Positions 12,057 through 38,510 of a stretch of DNA of 45,539 nucleotides are shown piece after piece. Position numbers and translations under genes: made by a program. How positions within the stretch are numbered: the first letter of the stretch is position 1; the number at the start of each line of letters is the position of its first letter. Under the pieces are notes generated by a model. It did no database searches and was not told the origin of the DNA. It saw nothing but the letters and a program-made list of their open reading frames with translations. Source of the stretch: Gammaproteobacteria bacterium (GTDB taxonomy: Bacteria > Pseudomonadota > Gammaproteobacteria > GCA-001735895); contig JAAEPH010000122.1 in NCBI GenBank assembly GCA_024232855.1, positions 1 through 45,539 on the forward strand. The letters are read 5' to 3'.

Positions 12057-14456
12057 TCAGGTGAGTTTCTGTTGAACTTCCTTGATGGCCTCGGCGACTT
12101 CTTCCATGGTCTGCAGCCGATCGTCAAGTTCGACCGCCATCAACTTCTGTACCAGCAGGCCGATATGCGGGCTCACTTCCTTGCGCACTTCATGCACCGG
12201 TCTTGCCTTGCCTTCCAGATGCTGAAACAACTGTGACATGGGTTCGCCGAGGTAGGGGAGCTTACCGGAAAACATGCAGTAGGCGATGATACCGAGCGCA
12301 TAGATATCACTGCGATGATCCGCTTCCATGCCCTTGGCGCGTTCCGGCGACAGGAAGGCGGGAGTACCGATGATCGAACCGACCTTGGTCAGGGTCGCTT
12401 CGATATTGGACGACGCCGAGGCGATACCAAAATCCACGACCTTCACCAGGCCCTTGCTGTCCATCAGGATATTACTCGGCTTCAGGTCACGATGAATAAC
12501 TTCCTGGTCGTGCGCCGCCGCCATACCGTTGGCCACCTGTAGCAGTATCCTGAGCCCCTTCTCGGCATCAAAGAATTCTTCCTCCTTGAGATACTCGTCG
12601 ATGCCCCGGCTTTCGAAATACTCCATCGATATCGCGCACAGGGTGGCCTCGGAGAGCATGTCGTGAACACGAATGACATTCGGGTGGCTGACTTTTCGTG
12701 AGTACCTGACCTCGCGCAGGAAGCGTTTCATGGACCCTTCCGCGATAGTCAGTTCCGGGTGCATGAATTTTAATACGAGTAGTTCGCCAACCATTTCATC
12801 GGTCGCCAGCATGACCCTGCCCATCGCGCCGCGACCGATTTCGCGGTCTATGCGATAGCGGCCCAGCCACTCGTCGCCCTTCTTGAAATCCTCGACATTC
12901 TTGACCGCCACCCCCGCGACCTCGGTCGTTGTCTGAGAAATTCGCGCCTCAAACATCTGGGTATCTTCAAGCTTGATCAGGCGGGTATCGAAATAGGAAT
13001 CCTGGTCGACATCGAGTTCTGGCAACTTGAACTCCTCGGTCATGCGCGAGATCACTTCACCCGCGGTATCGCGAACAATCGCCTGCAGCGACGGAACCTT
13101 TTGCATCAATTTTTTACGAACGATCTTGGCGTGGCGCTCGGTAGTGAGCTGACCGATAGTTTCAAGCGCCTGCCGCTGCACCAGCGCCTCGGGCATGCGC
13201 AGGCAGGCGAAGGCAATTTCCAGGCCCCTGGTAAAGCCCAGAGCCGCTGCCGCCTTTAGCACCGAGTTCGCCGAATCCGGGCGCTTTTCAATCACCTGCT
13301 TGAGAATGTTCATGGACTCGCGTTTGCCCGACTTGCCGATGGTCTCGATAGCGCTTTCGCGAACTTGCCAGTTTTCATGCAGCGCGTTGTTCCACAGCTG
13401 CTCGAGATCGCCGGGGTCGCTCGCCTGTGCGGCCAGATTTTGCGCCTGCTCGCGAATAAAGTCATTCTTGTGACCGGAGAGGCCTTTGGCTGCCGTATAG
13501 AGTTTATCGTTGCCAAACTTTTGCAGGCACTTCAGCGATTTCTCCTTGCCCCACCATTCCTGTATATCGAGCAATTGCAGGTAGCCTTCCAGTCCATTGG
13601 TGGTGGCATGCCTGACAAAAAGCTGGGTGAAAACTTCGCGGGCTTCGTCCGATTTATCGCAAGTCAACGGCGCCAGCTTCGGCGCCATTTCCTGGTCTGT
13701 GCGGTCATGGATAATCTCGATCGCGAGTTCTCGCCCGACGTCGGACATACCCTCGACGAAGGGTACCAGCACCGCCACGTCGTACTTGACCTTGAGGCCC
13801 TTGAGCGCCTTCAGCGCTTCGATCACCACTGCTTTATTGCTATCGCCGAGGAAACGCGCAATAAGTTGCGCAACCCGGGGCTGTTCCACCTCGGCGAAGT
13901 AACGCAGTAACAATATCTTCAGCGACGGACTCTCAATCGAGGCCGGCTCGACGTGCAAGACATCAATCTCGAGCGGTTGCTCCGACTTGTAAGCCAGTTT
14001 GAGTAATTGCTCGGCATCGCCTTTATCAAGTTTGAGGGCATTGCTGATGATCTGTTCGGGTTTCAACTGCGCGGTCTGGAATTCGAGAATCTCGATAATT
14101 TCCGACCTGGAGCGTTCGGACTCGTGCAGTTTCTTGAACAGTTTACTCGGATTGATCTGCGAGCTTTGCGACAGGATCGAGACAGTGGTGCGGCGAATCT
14201 CGGTGGCATCGTTATCGAGACCCTTTAAAAACAACTCTTCCGTGCTGCCGCCGACGTGTTGCTGGCAGATATCAGTCAGCATGGCCCGGTGCAGGCCGCT
14301 AGTTTGCGGGATCGTCTCGATCAGGTATTCGAGTGATTCCCTGGACGACTGGCGCAATTTTTCGATCAGGGCGACACCCCTGGCGCTTTCCAGATCGTCA
14401 CAATCGAGAAATTGCTTCAGGGTTCGTTTGAAAAAAATTGAGCCGAATACCGCCAT
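12057..14456 (-). CDS. HEAT-repeat protein with C-terminal Ser/Thr kinase
   Basis: The product is about 799 residues from the ATG at 14454-14456. Residues about 1-480 are a chain of helical pairs with HEAT-like spacing. Residues about 525-795 are a Hanks-type kinase: glycine loop IGRGAMGRVML, Lys in VLKFMHPE, catalytic loop HRDLKPSNIL near 654, DFG in VVDFGIAS, an activation segment rich in Ser/Thr, and SPER. All catalytic residues are present. Unlike most bacterial kinases of this class, the catalytic domain is at the C-terminus and no membrane helix is seen, so it should be cytoplasmic with the HEAT array acting as sensor or docking platform. Substrates are unknown. Confidence 0.92.
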   Translation of the reverse strand: MAVFGSIFFKRTLKQFLDCDDLESARGVALIEKLRQSSRESLEYLIETIPQTSGLHRAMLTDICQQHVGGSTEELFLKGLDNDATEIRRTTVSILSQSSQINPSKLFKKLHESERSRSEIIEILEFQTAQLKPEQIISNALKLDKGDAEQLLKLAYKSEQPLEIDVLHVEPASIESPSLKILLLRYFAEVEQPRVAQLIARFLGDSNKAVVIEALKALKGLKVKYDVAVLVPFVEGMSDVGRELAIEIIHDRTDQEMAPKLAPLTCDKSDEAREVFTQLFVRHATTNGLEGYLQLLDIQEWWGKEKSLKCLQKFGNDKLYTAAKGLSGHKNDFIREQAQNLAAQASDPGDLEQLWNNALHENWQVRESAIETIGKSGKRESMNILKQVIEKRPDSANSVLKAAAALGFTRGLEIAFACLRMPEALVQRQALETIGQLTTERHAKIVRKKLMQKVPSLQAIVRDTAGEVISRMTEEFKLPELDVDQDSYFDTRLIKLEDTQMFEARISQTTTEVAGVAVKNVEDFKKGDEWLGRYRIDREIGRGAMGRVMLATDEMVGELLVLKFMHPELTIAEGSMKRFLREVRYSRKVSHPNVIRVHDMLSEATLCAISMEYFESRGIDEYLKEEEFFDAEKGLRILLQVANGMAAAHDQEVIHRDLKPSNILMDSKGLVKVVDFGIASASSNIEATLTKVGSIIGTPAFLSPERAKGMEADHRSDIYALGIIAYCMFSGKLPYLGEPMSQLFQHLEGKARPVHEVRKEVSPHIGLLVQKLMAVELDDRLQTMEEVAEAIKEVQQKLT

Positions 14457-14526
14457 ACACTTATAGTTTGGTTCACGTTCTATGTAACAGCCAGTTTTGT
14501 CAGGCAATTATAGCCGTAAAACATCG

Positions 14527-29659: not shown

Positions 29660-31666
29660 ATGGAGCTTAGTAACCTATTGCCGCCGATTTTCGGCGCCTT
29701 CGGACTGTACGCGGCAGCCTATGTCTACAAGCAGGTCAAGAAACACCCGGAAGGCGAAGGCAAGGTCGTTGAAATCGGCAACCAGATTCACCTGGGCGCC
29801 ATGGTATTCATGAAGCGCGAATACAAGATGCTGGCCATTTTTGCCGCCGTCCTGCTGGTTTTGCTGTACTACTATCTTGGTGCCGGAACCGCTTTTTGCT
29901 TCCTCATGGGTGCACTCGCCTCCGGTAGCGCCGGCTACATCGGCATGAACACCGCTACTCGCGCCAACGTCAGGACGACCACCGCCGCGCACAACGAAGG
30001 GGCCGCGGCCGCCTTGACGGTAGCCTTCTTCGGCGGCTCGATCATGGGGCTTGCCGTTGCCTCCCTAGGCCTGCTCGGGCTGGGTATAGTCTACTTCCTG
30101 TTTTCCGGTGACCCCGAATCGCTGCACGCCATCCATGGATTCGCCATGGGCGCCTCGGTGGTAGCGCTGTTCTCGCGTGTCGGCGGCGGCATCTTCACCA
30201 AGAGCGCCGACGTTGGCGCCGACCTGGTCGGCAAGATCGAGGCCGGGATTCCCGAGGACGATCCCCGTAATCCGGGTGTTATCGCCGACAACGTCGGCGA
30301 CAATGTCGGCGACGTCGCCGGCATGGGATCCGATATCTTCGAATCCTACTGCGGCTCGATGATCGCATCGATCGCCATCGCATCGACCATGGCGGTCGCC
30401 ACAACCGAGGCAATGGGCGGTCGCGACGCAATGATGTCACTGCCGCTGGCACTGGCATCGCTGGGCCTGATGTGTTCCATCGGCGGCATACTGATCGTCA
30501 AGAAAAACTCCGAAAAGTCGCCCGAGAAAGCACTGCGCATGGGCACCATGGGGGCATCGGTACTGTTCATCGCGCTGGCCTTTTTACTGATTGCAATGTT
30601 TGGACTCGATAACGGTATCTGGGTCGCGGTTCTCGCCGGGGCCATCGGCGGCATTATCATCGGCCTGATCACCGAGTACTACACTGCCGGCAAGCCGGTA
30701 GAACACATCGCCAAGGCCGGTGAAACCGGTGCGGCCACGGTCATGATCAGCGGTCTCGCCATCGGCATGCAGTCGGTTGCGATTCCAATCTTCACCATCT
30801 GCGGCATCATCTGGGTCGCCAGTGAATTCGCCGGCCTCTACGGTGTCGGCATCGCCGCCGTCGGCATGCTCGCCACGGTCGGCATCACCATGGCCATCGA
30901 TGCTTACGGCCCGGTCGCCGACAACGCCGGCGGTATCGCCGAAATGGCGGGTCTCGGCGAAGATACCCGCAAGATCACCGATTCGCTCGATGAACTCGGC
31001 AACACCACGGCCGCTATCGGTAAGGGCTTTGCGATCGGCGCTGCGGCACTGGCGGCGCTTGCCATCATCACCGCCTACATCGAAACCGTTTCCGTCAACA
31101 TCGAAGATTTCGAGCTGTTGCTGAATGACCCCGAGGTGTTAATCGGGCTCTTTATCGGCGGCGTCATCCCCTTCGTCATCGCGGCGATCACGATGACCGC
31201 AGTCGGCGACGCCGCCTTTGAAATGATCAAGGAAATTCGTCGCCAGTTCCGTGAAATCGACGGACTGCTGGAAGGCAAGGCCGAACCCGATACCGCGCAA
31301 TGCGTCGATATTGCCACCACCGCGGCATTGAAAAAGATGATCGTACCGGGCGTGATTGCCGTCAGCGCTCCGCCGCTGGTGGGCTTTGTGCTCGGTGCGG
31401 AAGCGCTGGGTGGAATGCTCTCGGGTGCGTTGCTGGGCTGCGTACTGATGGCGTTGATGATGGCCAACGCCGGCGGCGCCTGGGATAACGCCAAGAAGTT
31501 CGTCGAAAAGGGTAATCTTGGCGGCAAGGGCACCGACACCCACGCGGCAACCGTGGTTGGCGATACCGTCGGCGACCCCTTCAAGGACACCTCGGGCCCG
31601 TCGATGAACATTCTCATCAACGTCATGGCGATCTGCAGCCTGGTTATCGCCCCGCTACTGACCTAG
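29660..31666 (+). CDS. hppA: Membrane ion-pumping pyrophosphatase HppA
   Basis: This protein couples hydrolysis of pyrophosphate to pumping H+ (or Na+) across the inner membrane. The 668 residues form about 16 membrane helices. The substrate site [19 protein letters not shown] near residue 182 and the [11 protein letters not shown] motif right after it are complete, as is the late [15 protein letters not shown]. The alanine pair in [14 protein letters not shown] near 445 is the form linked to K+-dependent enzymes (K+-independent ones carry Lys there). Ion choice cannot be settled by eye. GGGGAAA lies before the ATG. pfp and ppa follow. Confidence 0.96.
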
Positions 31667-31683
31667 AATGCTGCCGCGTCGCG

Positions 31684-31713
31684 GCGGTACGGTCGCAATA
31701 ACGACCGCACCGC
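31684..31713 (+). other. Stem-loop between hppA and pfp
   Basis: GCGGT-A-CGGTCG and CGACCG-C-ACCGC pair over 11 bp with one mismatch around CAATAA. It begins 17 bases after the hppA stop. No T-run follows, so it more likely shields or processes the hppA message, or only partly stops transcription into pfp. Confidence 0.5.
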
Positions 31714-31767
31714 CCGTGACCCGGTTCAAGGTAATTCCCCTGAATCGAATCGGTTAAATACAGAATC

Positions 31768-33024
31768 ATGAGCCTCAAAAACGCTTTTTACGCACAGTCC
31801 GGCGGCGTCACGTCGGTTATCAACGCAAGCGCCTGCGGCGTCATCGAAACCTGCCGTAAAAACGCTGATCGTATCGGCAACGTGTTTGCCGGCCGCAACG
31901 GCATCATCGGCGCATTAACCGAAGAGTTGATCGACACCTCGCGCGAATCGGATGCGGACATCGCCGCGCTGATGAAGACGCCCTCGGGCGCCTTCGGTTC
32001 ATGCCGATTCAAACTCAAGAGTCTCGAGGAAAACCGGCGCGAGTACGAGCGCCTGATCGAGGTTTTCAAGGCGCACGATATCGGTTACTTCTTCTACAAC
32101 GGCGGCGGTGACTCGGCCGATACCTGCTACAAAGTATCGCAGTTATCCGAAACCATGGGGTTTCCGGTGCAGGCGATACATATTCCCAAGACCGTGGATA
32201 ACGATCTGCCCGTCACCGATGTGTGCCCCGGCTTCAGCTCGGTCGCCAAGTACATAGCCGTATCCGCGCTGGAAGCATCGTTTGACGTCAGCTCGATGGC
32301 GAGGACGTCGACCAAGGTGTTTATTCTCGAAGTCATGGGCCGTCACGCCGGATGGATAGCGGCCGCGGGCGGGTTGATCGAAGACTACGGAATTCCGGTA
32401 CTGCTGCTGTTTCCCGAGGTCGACTTCGATCACGATCGCTTTATCGGCGCGCTTAAGGCCAGGGTCGATGAATTCGGTTATTGCACGGTCGTGGTTTCCG
32501 AGGGCGCACGCAACGCGGACGGCAGCTTTCTCGCCGAACAGGGCACCCGCGATGCCTTCGGCCACGCGCAACTGGGTGGCGTCGCCCCGGTCGTCGCCAA
32601 TATGGTGAAACAGGCCCTGGGATACAAGTTCCACTGGGCGGTGGCCGACTACCTGCAACGCGCCGCGCGCCACATCGCTTCGGCAACCGATGTCGAACAA
32701 GCCTATGCGCTGGGTAAAAGCAGCGTCGAAATGGCGCTCGCCGGGAAAAATGCGATCATGCCGACCATCGACAGGCTGTCCAATAACCCGTACCGCTGGG
32801 AAATCGGTAGTACCGATCTGGCAAACGTCGCCAACGTCGAGAAAACCATGCCGCTTGATTTTATCAGCGCCGACGGTCTCGGCATTACCGACAAGTGTCG
32901 CGACTATCTCTACCCGCTGATCCAGGGCGAGGCCTATCCCGATTACGACGAACGCGGCATGCCGCGCTACGTCGTGCTGAAAAATGAGCTGGCCGATAAA
33001 AAACTGGGCGATTTCGAGCTCTAA
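31768..33024 (+). CDS. pfp: Pyrophosphate-dependent 6-phosphofructokinase
   Basis: The enzyme phosphorylates fructose 6-phosphate with pyrophosphate instead of ATP, and works in both glycolytic and gluconeogenic directions. The 418 residues carry NGGGDSADT near residue 111 (Asp in place of the Gly that binds ATP in ordinary enzymes) and PKTVDNDLP near 140 (the Lys that marks PPi use). EVMGRHAGWIAA near 190 is the substrate-binding block. It follows hppA by 101 bases on the same strand, an order also reported for methanotrophs, and probably relies on it for the PPi balance. Confidence 0.93.
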   Translation: MSLKNAFYAQSGGVTSVINASACGVIETCRKNADRIGNVFAGRNGIIGALTEELIDTSRESDADIAALMKTPSGAFGSCRFKLKSLEENRREYERLIEVFKAHDIGYFFYNGGGDSADTCYKVSQLSETMGFPVQAIHIPKTVDNDLPVTDVCPGFSSVAKYIAVSALEASFDVSSMARTSTKVFILEVMGRHAGWIAAAGGLIEDYGIPVLLLFPEVDFDHDRFIGALKARVDEFGYCTVVVSEGARNADGSFLAEQGTRDAFGHAQLGGVAPVVANMVKQALGYKFHWAVADYLQRAARHIASATDVEQAYALGKSSVEMALAGKNAIMPTIDRLSNNPYRWEIGSTDLANVANVEKTMPLDFISADGLGITDKCRDYLYPLIQGEAYPDYDERGMPRYVVLKNELADKKLGDFEL

Positions 33025-33042
33025 TCGGGAAAATTGAAGCGC

Positions 33043-33119
33043 TAGCCCGCCTGAAGAAAATCCCTTGTGGATTCAAAGAACAAGCGAAGGCCCGCCATCC
33101 TGGTGAGATATGCGGGCTA
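33043..33119 (-). repeat. Short member of the TAGCCCG palindrome family (77 bp)
   Basis: It begins TAGCCCGC and ends GCGGGCTA. The inner CTTGTGGATTCAAAGAACAAGCG closely resembles CTTGTGGAATCAATAGACAAGCG of the copy at 1-142 (positions about 89-111), so it is a diverged, shorter relative. It sits in the 192-base gap between pfp and ppa and has no ORF. Confidence 0.7.
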
Positions 33120-33216
33120 ATAGCAAGGATTGAAATTTGCCGGATGCGCCCCTGACGCCTGTTCAGGCAGCGCCAGTCAGTTATAATCGCGACCCGTTTA
33201 GCGAATTGGTAACATC

Positions 33217-33753
33217 ATGATTTTAGACCGGGTCAGCACAGGCAAGAACGTCCCCAACGACATCAATGTCATCATTGAAATTCCATCGCACAGCGACCCC
33301 ATCAAGTACGAGGTCGACAAGGAAACCGGTGCGATGTTCGTCGACCGCTTCATGGGAACCTCGATGCACTATCCCTGCAACTATGGATATATCCCGAAGA
33401 CCCTGTCTGAAGATGGAGACCCGGCTGACGTACTGGTGGTGACGCCGATCCCGGTCATCACCGGCTCGGTCATTCGTGTCAGGCCGCTCGGAATGTTGTG
33501 CATGACCGATGAAGCCGGCAAGGATGCGAAAATCATCGCGGTGCCGATCGACAAGCTGTCGAGCCTCTATACGCACATGAGAAGCGTGCGCGACCTGCCA
33601 AGATCGCTACTCGATTCGATCTCGCATTTCTTCGACCACTACAAGGATCTCGAGCCCGGCAAATGGGTCAATATCGACGGCTGGGTCGATGTCGAGGACG
33701 CCAAGCAGGAAATCCTCGACTCCATCGAGCGTTACGAAGCCGAATCAAACTAG
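33217..33753 (+). CDS. ppa: Soluble inorganic pyrophosphatase (family I)
   Basis: This enzyme hydrolyses cytoplasmic pyrophosphate to phosphate, driving biosynthesis. The 178 residues match the usual 175. The metal-binding Asp cluster is in [11 protein letters not shown], a second in [15 protein letters not shown], and [16 protein letters not shown] holds the substrate site. It competes with HppA and Pfp for PPi, so its presence beside them suggests the cell controls how PPi is spent. The gap before it holds the short palindrome. Confidence 0.96.
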
Positions 33754-35077: not shown

Positions 35078-35521
35078 TCAACTATTGTCGTCCGATTCCA
35101 GCGCTCCCGCGTTTCCGGATTGAAAGCGCGGCAAACCATCATTGATCTCATAGTAGCTGGCCGCTTCCGATACAAAGACATGTCCTATTGTTTTCAGATC
35201 CCGGCTATCGTCGAGCGAACCGGCGGCTACCGATATTCGCTGGCGACCATCGCGCGCGTCCCAGAACAGGCTAGCGCCACATTGATTGCAGAACCCGCGC
35301 CAGGTATCCGGCGATGCATCATGATACCACTGCAGGGTATGCTCGCTGACCAGGGTCAGGGCGGACCGCCGCAACGCGGTATAAGCAGCAACATGCCCAT
35401 GAGTGCGACGGCAATTTTCACAATGGCAACAGATGACATCGCGGTACTTGCCATCAATGCGATAACGAACTCCACCACACAAACATCCACCACTCAGCGT
35501 TGTGGTCTTGTCATCAGTCAT
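35078..35521 (-). CDS. GFA/CENP-V-family zinc protein
   Basis: The 147 residues hold the GFA zinc-binding set: GGCLCGGVRY, CCHCENCRRTHG and FCNQCGASLFW, all cysteines intact. The family is named after glutathione-dependent formaldehyde-activating enzyme, but most members have no proven reaction, so a general zinc enzyme is all that can be claimed. Its start overlaps the end of the HAD phosphatase by eight bases, on the same strand. Confidence 0.88.
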   Translation of the reverse strand: MTDDKTTTLSGGCLCGGVRYRIDGKYRDVICCHCENCRRTHGHVAAYTALRRSALTLVSEHTLQWYHDASPDTWRGFCNQCGASLFWDARDGRQRISVAAGSLDDSRDLKTIGHVFVSEAASYYEINDGLPRFQSGNAGALESDDNS

Positions 35522-36194
35522 CCGACACCTCGCTTATGGGCATGATTTCATCGAAGGAAAGGATCGCCCTGAAATGATTGATCTCGCGCCGTGGCGCCTG
35601 CGAATCCGGTTGGTAAATCGCCAGCAGCTGTTCGATACCATACTCGCGCGCGGACTCGAGCGCATGCAGATTATCGTCGATTAAAAGGGTCCTGGCCGCC
35701 GTGAAAGGGTGGCGTTTATGCACCTCGTGCCAGCACTGTGGGTCTTCCTTGGGCAGGGAAAACTCGTGTACGGTAATGAGCCGATCGAATTTGTGCGCCA
35801 GTTGCGTCCTCTCCATTTTCAGGGAAAGGCTATCGTGGTGGGCATTGGTCACCAGTACGATATCCTTGTTCGCGGCCCGCAGCGCATCGAGGAAATCAAT
35901 GCAATATGGTCGAATCGCAACCTTGTGGCTGACTTCATGCTTTAATTCGACCACGTCGATTTGCAGTATTTCACTCCAGTAGTCGGTCGAATACCAGTTC
36001 AGGCTTCCCTGAATGCTGCGGGTTTGGGTAACGATGTACTGTTTTGCGGAGAGCGGTTCCAGGCCCTTGAGCTCGGCGTAGCGCATGGGCAGGTGTTCCT
36101 GCCAGAAGTAATTGTCGAAATGCAGGTCGAGCAGGGTACCGTCCATATCGAGCAGTACGGTTTCGATCCGTTCCCATTCGATCACTGGCGCCAT
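35514..36194 (-). CDS. yrfG: HAD-family phosphatase, YrfG-like (GMP/IMP nucleotidase)
   Basis: The 226 residues show the HAD motifs: DMDGTLLDL near 15 with the Asp nucleophile and Asp acid, LVTNAHHDS as motif II, a Lys in KEDPQCW as motif III, and LLIDDNLHALE as motif IV. FDNYFWQEHLP is typical of YrfG, whose E. coli member dephosphorylates GMP and IMP. It is followed, with overlap, by the GFA gene and lies 35 bases after the PP2C-FGE gene. Confidence 0.88.
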   Translation of the reverse strand: MAPVIEWERIETVLLDMDGTLLDLHFDNYFWQEHLPMRYAELKGLEPLSAKQYIVTQTRSIQGSLNWYSTDYWSEILQIDVVELKHEVSHKVAIRPYCIDFLDALRAANKDIVLVTNAHHDSLSLKMERTQLAHKFDRLITVHEFSLPKEDPQCWHEVHKRHPFTAARTLLIDDNLHALESAREYGIEQLLAIYQPDSQAPRREINHFRAILSFDEIMPISEVSDD

Positions 36195-36229: not shown

Positions 36230-38056
36230 CTACAAATCACGCGCAACGCGGAATCCGACGTTGTACTGACCCTTGTTGCTCTTGAACTTTTCGCGATGCT
36301 CGACGCGCATCGAACTGGCCGGGCTACGGTAGGCGCCACCGCGCACGACACGCACCTTGCAGTCCCCACCTTCCCATACCGAACCGTCATCGGGTGCATC
36401 CTTGTAATTTCGGTGATAACAATCGTGAGTCCATTCGAAGACGTTACCGGCCGTGTCATAAAGGCCAAACGGATTTGCTTTATAGGTTCCCACCTTGGCC
36501 GTTTTGCTGGTGTTGTAATCGCTCTTGCAGTCGAAACAGTGCGCGTTACTAACCCCCGCCTTGGCACCCCACCAGAAAGAGGTAGTGGTACCCCCGCGCG
36601 CCGCATACTCCCATTCTGCCTCGGACAGCAGGCGGTAACGCTTTCCGGTTTGCTTGCTGAGCCAGCGGGTATAAGCGAAGGCATCGTCCCAGGAGACATC
36701 GACTACGGGATAGGTCTTGCGATCCAGGCCATCACTTTTCGGTTTTTTGCGCTTGGCTGCCTTGGCAAAACGATAGTATTCATCGAAGGTGACCTCGTAA
36801 ACGGAAACCATGAAGGAGCCGATGTTAACTTCGTGCCGGGGAACTTCATCGGGCCCGACGATCGCCGTGGCGCCGCCCATGCGGAAGGTTCCCGCGGGCA
36901 GTGTTATCATGACCGGGCCTTTACCGCCCGACTTGAGCTTGTCCCGGAAAGTGTCTCTCTTATCGACGACCACCGGCTCGGGTTCGACGACCGGTTCAGG
37001 CTCGGGCGCCGGTTCAGGCTCGGGCGCCGGCTCGGGTCCGGGTTCGGGCTGTAACCCGGCCTCGATCAACTGCGTGGTGGAATCTACCAGGTCACTGCCT
37101 TTTTCCACGGCGTCGTCGATAAATCCCTGCTTCCATGCAAAAAATCCGCCGCCTCCCAACAGGCCGATGATGACCAGCACTATCAGCCATTTGAACGAGC
37201 GAGGCTCGCTGGGCTCATCGGGGACTTCTACGTCGGCAACCCGGGGCGCGGGTTCCGGTGGAGCCTCCGTCGAAGCCTGGTCACCGCGCATTTCGCGCTC
37301 CCTGATATCGACGACTATAAGGGTGGTATTGTCCTGGTTGATTTTGTTGGCGTCTTCGACCGCCTTCAAGAGCGCGTAAACGCACTCCTTGGCCGTCGCC
37401 GACCACGATGAATACTGGATAATCGCACCCGCACCGAGGGTGTCCAGCCCATCGCTGGCGATAATCACGCGGTCACCCGGCCTGACTTTTACCGGTGTTT
37501 CGGAAACATCGATGCTGCTGATTTCTTCGCCGGTCATCGCGCTCATCAACATGCTGCGTGACATGCCCGGCTGTTCCTCGATCTCCATACCCTGCTCTTT
37601 CATCATGTCGAGGTAGGAGCCGTAGCTGTGATCGGCATTCTGTTTGATCAGTTCACGATCGCGTATCAGGTAGAGATGACTGTCGCCGACACTGACCCAG
37701 AAAAGCTTGTTGTCCTCAAGGTAACCGGTGACCATGGTACAGCCCATACCACGTAACGCCGGGGTTTCCTTGACGGACGCCCGGATCTGGTCATTCGAGC
37801 GGTTTAGCGCGTCGGTGAGAACATCGGCAACATTCTTGGTTGGAAAGCTTCCCTGGAAGGTCTTATTGAAAGTCGCAACTACCATGTTACTGGCGACATT
37901 ACCCGCGGCATGACCACCCATGCCATCGGCCATGATAATCAGCGCACAAAGATCACCGCCATCCGACTCGCCCAGCTGGTTGACCATGTAAGCGTCTTCC
38001 TGATAGTCACGTGCACCATCAATCTGATCGCTTGCTATGTCAAATTCGATTTTCAT
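36230..38056 (-). CDS. PP2C phosphatase fused through a TM helix to an FGE-like domain
   Basis: The 608-residue protein has three parts. Residues about 1-255 are a PP2C Ser/Thr phosphatase with metal-binding DYQEDAY, MADGMGGHAAG, VGDSHLYLI, ASDGLDTL and a late DNTT. Residues about 289-309 are one membrane helix, placing the N-terminal part in the cytoplasm. A Pro/Glu repeat linker (about 335-365) leads to a formylglycine-generating-enzyme-like domain (about 375-607; LPAGTFRMGG, WEYAARGG, GNVFEWTHD, GFRVARDL), which would be periplasmic. The Cys pair of true FGE near the C-terminus is replaced (SSMRVEHR), so it likely binds rather than oxidises. It may oppose the kinase at 12057-14456. Confidence 0.9.
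   Translation of the reverse strand: MKIEFDIASDQIDGARDYQEDAYMVNQLGESDGGDLCALIIMADGMGGHAAGNVASNMVVATFNKTFQGSFPTKNVADVLTDALNRSNDQIRASVKETPALRGMGCTMVTGYLEDNKLFWVSVGDSHLYLIRDRELIKQNADHSYGSYLDMMKEQGMEIEEQPGMSRSMLMSAMTGEEISSIDVSETPVKVRPGDRVIIASDGLDTLGAGAIIQYSSWSATAKECVYALLKAVEDANKINQDNTTLIVVDIREREMRGDQASTEAPPEPAPRVADVEVPDEPSEPRSFKWLIVLVIIGLLGGGGFFAWKQGFIDDAVEKGSDLVDSTTQLIEAGLQPEPGPEPAPEPEPAPEPEPVVEPEPVVVDKRDTFRDKLKSGGKGPVMITLPAGTFRMGGATAIVGPDEVPRHEVNIGSFMVSVYEVTFDEYYRFAKAAKRKKPKSDGLDRKTYPVVDVSWDDAFAYTRWLSKQTGKRYRLLSEAEWEYAARGGTTTSFWWGAKAGVSNAHCFDCKSDYNTSKTAKVGTYKANPFGLYDTAGNVFEWTHDCYHRNYKDAPDDGSVWEGGDCKVRVVRGGAYRSPASSMRVEHREKFKSNKGQYNVGFRVARDL
36975..37046 (-). repeat. 18-bp tandem repeat encoding a Pro-Glu linker
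   Basis: Four 18-base units (36975, 36993, 37011, 37029) related to GGTTCAGGCTCGGGCGCC lie in frame in the PP2C-FGE gene. Each gives six residues of the EPEPAP type on the minus strand. The two middle units are identical. Such units change number easily, so linker length may vary between strains. Confidence 0.8.
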
Positions 38057-38159: not shown

Positions 38160-38510
38160 TTACGACGTAGGTTTATTGGCTACGCCGTGAAAATGGCCGA
38201 TATTCCGTTTGCTTAAGCAGACGCAGCGGTAGAAAAGATTATTGTTTACTTCCGCCCATTGCCTGTACTCCCAGTCGCGACATTTTTCCCGCTCTGCCGC
38301 GATCAGCGACCCCCAATCCACGCATTTTGCCTCAGAATAAGGTGATATTGAATGATTATGCGATGAAAAAATGTTGCTGGTGATCCCGACAAGGCGCATA
38401 TCCCGCAATTGCAGGCCGATTTCCTCGATCACTTCGCGATGCGCGGCCTGCCACGGCACAAAGTTCTGAATTCGAACTCTATGGTATATTGCGGGTCTAC
38501 TGTGGATCAA
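38160..38510 (-). pseudogene. Nudix hydrolase remnant, 5' truncated
   Basis: Part of a Nudix box is clear (QAAHREVIEEIGL), followed by the typical LRDMRLVGITSNIFS and a degraded tail (EKCRDWEYRQWAE). The residues before it are not Nudix: the first half of the box (G-x5-E) and the preceding beta-strands are missing, and the frame opens with a TTG inside the promoter region of arsS. Intact relatives are about 140 residues. Two reading-frame changes in the strand after SSHNH may also be present. Not expected to be active. Confidence 0.7.
38479..38490 (+). promoter_or_regulatory. Candidate arsS promoter, extended -10
   Basis: TGGTATATT (to 38490) is an extended -10 (TGnTATAAT-like), about 40 bases before the arsS ATG. 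No good -35 is seen. It lies where the truncated Nudix gene ends, so the deletion may have created or exposed it. A GGA is five bases before the ATG. Confidence 0.35.

Follow-up and report, generated by a model that had tools for sequence, protein, structure and literature searches.

Outer sensor domains are a familiar feature of bacterial Ser/Thr kinases, and the phosphatases are usually treated as their unregulated partners. The FGE fold, for its part, can be an enzyme even without the FGE cysteine pair, as in PvdO and EgtB/SenA. In TvpA and Mtd, the FGE-type CLec fold serves binding (PMC5006420). Among phosphatases, PstP of M. tuberculosis has a single transmembrane (TM) segment after the PP2C domain and an outer part beyond it (PMC12088040); the protein considered here likewise has a single predicted TM helix after its PP2C domain. 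The same survey of bacterial PP2C architectures includes cNMP-binding and kinase fusions of PP2C domains, and its main text carries no FGE fusion (PMC12088040). Our literature searches found no published account of a PP2C-FGE architecture, and to this extent, that no known role was found for it, the initial annotation's description of an undescribed signalling protein stands.

The window, that is, the whole stretch of DNA analysed, comprises the 45,539 nucleotides of contig JAAEPH010000122.1 from a gammaproteobacterial genome (GCA_024232855.1). The features at issue are as follows:

36230..38056, minus strand: PP2C-TM-linker-FGE protein of 608 aa, a single intact open reading frame
37301..38056, minus strand: predicted cytosolic PP2C domain, residues 1-252 (Pfam and NCBIfam matches, PstP alignment)
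37199..37300, minus strand: variable juxtamembrane linker, residues 253-286 (ortholog column identity)
37130..37195, minus strand: predicted single TM helix, residues ~288-309, with basic residues on the PP2C side (hydropathy from sequence)
36959..37129, minus strand: predicted outer acidic linker with Pro/Glu repeats, residues 310-366 (ortholog comparison)
36233..36958, minus strand: FGE-like domain, residues 367-608, with four conserved Cys at 507, 510, 546 and 566 (Pfam, model, Cys conservation)
36293..36343, minus strand: degenerate FGE active-site motif, RGGAYRSPASSMRVEHR (sequence and ortholog comparison)
35514..36194, minus strand: HAD-family hydrolase, the next gene downstream after a 35 bp gap, listed as a neighbour

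The frame at 36230-38056 (minus strand) starts with ATG and has no internal stop. Its predicted topology would be of the receptor type, with one hydrophobic helix, located by hydropathy, separating the PP2C and FGE domains and basic residues on the PP2C side. A DSSP helix at residues 289-309 falls in the same place, within a low-confidence region of the full-length AlphaFold model, which was poor (pLDDT 67) and was left out of the fold search. The proposal of a phosphatase linked to an FGE-like domain by way of a TM helix is upheld. The outer linker, with its PEPEP stretch at residues ~334-362, varies in both length and sequence among orthologs. The FGE-like domain is predicted to lie on the periplasmic side. 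In the alignment, every PP2C-FGE or CNB-FGE sequence retains the four cysteines, as do ~90% of other relatives, which would be expected for disulfides outside the cytosol; the FGE/CLec-type outer domain is thus probably disulfide-bridged.

Our scan of species genomes yielded 127 relatives, of which 80 were retained. Thirty-one full-length, intact relatives from independent assemblies align end to end with the window protein at 61-82% identity, and most are syntenic with it, which rules out an assembly error, a frameshift or a chimera as the source of the fusion; the initial annotation had named a frameshift or assembly error as grounds for refutation. One further ortholog (L009) carries an internal stop. 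Mean column identity in the ortholog alignment is 90% in the PP2C domain, the best-conserved portion of the protein, versus 57% in the juxtamembrane linker. Estimates of dN/dS (Nei-Gojobori) between the window protein and divergent orthologs are ~0.02-0.06 in the PP2C part and ~0.06-0.11 in the FGE part, synonymous sites being close to saturation or past it, and purifying selection acts on all domains.

In relatives, the gene order on one side of the phosphatase gene runs through an ArsS-like radical SAM gene, a glycosyltransferase, DUF2064 and PyrD, and on the other through HAD, GFA, HxlR, GGDEF, a pyrophosphatase, PFK and an H+-PPase. HAD, GFA and HxlR were not found around the gene in the most diverged relatives, the HAD hydrolase being unmatched at this place in L023-L028, L038 and L040, and in other families the neighbours are MoaA/MobA/MoeA and an HrpA-type helicase. 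The neighbourhood, mostly housekeeping genes and stable only within a family, names no partner. Several smaller features of these surroundings may be recorded. A short NUDIX-domain frame of 116 aa with a TTG start (window 38160-38510, minus strand) lies just upstream of the phosphatase gene, and a membrane H+-pyrophosphatase, a phosphofructokinase-family protein and a soluble pyrophosphatase stand in a row at window 29660-33753, which suggests a pyrophosphate-based metabolism. The Olavius algarvensis Gamma 3 symbiont (L029) has one relative, and its ArsS-like gene was matched as two pieces ~1.5 kb apart (L029:6852-9362), as if interrupted by an insertion.

The architecture is less exotic than the initial annotation had supposed in calling it unusual. 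Counting PP2C and FGE matches within one open frame of ~610-730 aa, with three candidates scored per genome, it is present in at least 38 of 369 evenly drawn gammaproteobacterial genomes, spread over 16 families. A sample of 398 genomes from across the phylum gave no full-length match besides the window's own, and within this sample no full-length PP2C-FGE protein was found outside Gammaproteobacteria.

The phosphatase half matches PP2C_2 (Pfam; E 3.2e-10, above the Pfam cut-off), PP2C (E 1.4e-7) and PstP (E 6.7e-23), and reaches 130 bits against the NCBIfam Stp1/IreP-type PP2C model, under its equivalog cut-off of 230. R16, E20, D21, D44/G45, D125, D202/G203 and D242/N243 show no variation across 31 aligned sequences, and they include the phosphate-binding Arg and metal-binding Asp residues (R16, D44, D125, D202 and D242; the PstP alignment begins at residue 37). 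Because the catalytic residues are invariant over these 31 sequences, phosphatase activity of the domain is likely. The fold and the metal- and phosphate-binding residues are thus common to this protein and to Stp1/PstP-type phosphatases, but the window protein belongs to a separate branch and has an FGE-like outer domain: in the PP2C tree, the PP2C-FGE phosphatases group far from this genome's two other PP2C proteins and from PstP, and they form a distinct, long-branched PP2C subfamily, with QYSSWS as a conserved motif. Regulation of a T6SS by a PppA-type phosphatase was also considered and rejected, as the marker TssC/VipB (PF05943) was not found in the window's genome, which is 97% complete. 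With regard to kinases, a protein of 816 aa in which HEAT repeats precede a C-terminal Ser/Thr kinase domain is encoded 22 kb away (window 12057-14507, minus strand), a possible but unproven partner; in family f112, the PP2C-FGE gene has a Ser/Thr kinase gene of 440 aa nearby (L135:11730-13052).

The outer half is recognised by Pfam as FGE-sulfatase (E 1.4e-53, residues 381-606). The structural modelling that had been proposed was carried out on this domain, and a model from 51 sequences reached a mean pLDDT of 94.9, its best matches in a fold search being PvdO (Z 34.3), TvpA (Z 30.6) and S. coelicolor FGE (Z 29.8); the domain accordingly has the FGE fold. In place of the RGGSxxCxxxxC motif with its cysteine pair, the window protein has RGGAYRSPASSM, with both catalytic cysteines gone; S578 and M583 occupy their places (positions after human FGE). 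The motif is free of Cys in 32 of 33 PP2C-FGE representatives, L120 retaining one, which bears out the loss of the cysteine pair that had first been noticed. A true FGE, tethered to the phosphatase and maturing this genome's sulfatases, is therefore very improbable and largely refuted. We found no other FGE-domain protein in this genome, which has nine sulfatase matches, several of them bearing a CxPxR-type motif. Yet both catalytic cysteines are missing and the genome also encodes a radical-SAM sulfatase maturase over its cut-off (TIGR03942), which would fill the role, so that sulfatase maturation does not require the PP2C-FGE protein.

From the cysteine loss, the initial annotation had gone on to conclude that the outer domain is probably a binding module. 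The loss itself stands, but alone it does not prove a pure binding module, because PvdO, a named enzyme, is also without the pair, as its printed alignment confirms. Perhaps, then, the outer domain is itself catalytic in the manner of PvdO or EgtB, with an oxidation chemistry that does not depend on the Cys pair, the PP2C domain merely sharing its chain or reporting on it. PvdO, named as an enzyme in NCBIfam, is indeed the closest solved structure (39% identity over aligned residues), and together with EgtB/SenA it provides a precedent for enzymes without the pair. Against the PvdO equivalog, however, the domain scores 161 bits where the cut-off is 500, no gene for an obvious substrate was found nearby, and a module that also ends kinases and CNB-coiled coil proteins fits a generic outer role better; we regard an active enzyme as quite unlikely. 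PvdO (5hha) and TvpA (2y3c) thus share the FGE/CLec fold with the window protein, and PvdO shares the absent cysteines, but PvdO is a stand-alone siderophore enzyme and TvpA a retroelement-diversified binding protein, and neither has a cytosolic phosphatase.

Hanks kinases ending in an FGE-like domain occur in the same class (L146, L147, L149, L151, L152 and L153), so the kinase counterpart that the initial annotation had invoked does exist; in L146, a Pkinase domain, PEGA repeats and FGE are combined and a PP2C gene adjoins. These kinases and the PP2C-FGE proteins both have an N-terminal phospho-signalling domain and a C-terminal FGE-like domain of the four-Cys type, but the former carry a kinase rather than a phosphatase, and their FGE domains are more distant and fall outside the PP2C-FGE clade. 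Proteins of 1300-2000 aa with two cNMP-binding domains, rhodanese, a long coiled coil, a TM segment and FGE form a second group (L123, L124, L126 and L128), which has the TM segment, the Pro-rich linker and the closest FGE domain in common with the PP2C-FGE proteins, whereas the cytosolic part consists of cNMP-binding domains, rhodanese and coiled coil, and PP2C is usually absent. Of the 33 PP2C-FGE rows in the FGE tree, 32 cluster together (SH-aLRT 89), L102 being an exception on a long branch; this cluster joins the CNB-rhodanese type (SH-aLRT 92), and the kinase-FGE rows lie elsewhere; the trees come from quick searches and their supports are moderate (82-94).

One protein unites all of these parts. 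L121 (1736 aa) carries, in one chain, 2xCNB, rhodanese, PP2C, coiled coil, TM and FGE, and a relative, L122, has a stop ahead of the FGE part (L122:3056-8590), reflecting either a broken gene or a sequencing error. In the PP2C tree, the PP2C domains of L121 and L122 are sister to the PP2C-FGE group. In PP2C-FGE genomes there are also soluble proteins of ~800-900 aa that combine CNB, rhodanese and coiled coil (L171, L172 and L176), and these branch as the sister group of the L121/L122 N-terminus (support 94). The PP2C-FGE proteins and the CNB-rhodanese fusions share a common ancestry.

The sister CNB-rhodanese-FGE proteins, scaffold-like with their very long coiled coils, raise the alternative of a structural role for the FGE-like domain, which would anchor the phosphatase at a cell site (peptidoglycan, the outer membrane or a protein complex), with no ligand-gated signal. 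FGE-like PorK/GldK (Z 27.8) is a structural ring component, and at a threshold of 90% the FGE alignment contains no residue specific to the PP2C-FGE clade, so that the alignment does not point to a dedicated binding site. Sensing nevertheless fits as well, given the kinases that carry this outer module and the use of the CLec-type fold in binding, and we consider a plain anchor unlikely.

A further clue comes from co-occurrence. A CNB-rhodanese protein is present in 38 of 38 PP2C-FGE genomes versus 170 of 369 overall (hypergeometric 1e-14, phylogeny ignored), the stand-alone gene being widespread. The long CNB-FGE fusion, in contrast, is found in 29 genomes, classed by open-frame length with ten checked directly, and in 0 of the 38 PP2C-FGE genomes (phylogeny again ignored). 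This suggests, but does not prove, that the PP2C-FGE family is linked to cyclic-nucleotide or redox input. In the window's genome, the sole CNB-rhodanese protein found is a stand-alone form of 352 aa, and the coiled-coil version closest to the L121 fusion was not found there. At the level of the family the link is thus suggestive; it is weaker for this genome, in which a CNB-rhodanese protein would partner the PP2C-FGE protein. The 352-aa gene lies ~2 kb from a cluster of CHASE2-kinase, PP2C, FHA and CHASE2-nucleotide-cyclase genes. At G000:C97 (L161:6942-16483), CNB-rhodanese, GAF-HD-GYP, CHASE2-kinase, PP2C, FHA and CHASE2-nucleotide cyclase genes stand together as a compact kinase/phosphatase/cyclic-nucleotide cluster.

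Taken as a whole, the reading that we favour, and hold to be moderately probable, is that of a membrane-anchored PP2C with a predicted outer FGE-like binding domain, tuned or positioned by a ligand and perhaps working in the cytosol with a CNB-rhodanese partner. The N-terminal PP2C, with its catalytic residues intact, would dephosphorylate at least one cytosolic or membrane-proximal phosphoprotein, a substrate presumably phosphorylated by certain Hanks-type kinases of the genome. The TM helix and the flexible, acidic Pro/Glu linker would put the catalytically degenerate FGE/CLec-type domain in the periplasm, where it may bind an envelope or external ligand and so position or tune the phosphatase; binding of a ligand, and the gating of the phosphatase by it that the initial annotation had put forward, are inferences. 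To judge from the fused relatives, the cytosolic side may also work with a protein of two cNMP-binding domains and rhodanese. It is tempting to speculate about a gammaproteobacterial envelope signalling system in which the TM PP2C senses an outside ligand by way of its degenerate FGE domain and, by way of a CNB-CNB-rhodanese partner, also the cyclic-nucleotide or redox state, the partner being part of the same chain in one lineage and a separate protein in others; this is a tentative and rather doubtful extension.

In sum, the window encodes a conserved membrane PP2C, undescribed in the literature searched, whose predicted outer domain is FGE-like; among receptor-type Ser/Thr signalling proteins it would be the phosphatase counterpart of the receptor kinases with such an outer domain. 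An outer domain on a widespread phosphatase family would turn dephosphorylation into a sensed step, and the fused relatives point to a testable partner, the CNB-rhodanese proteins.
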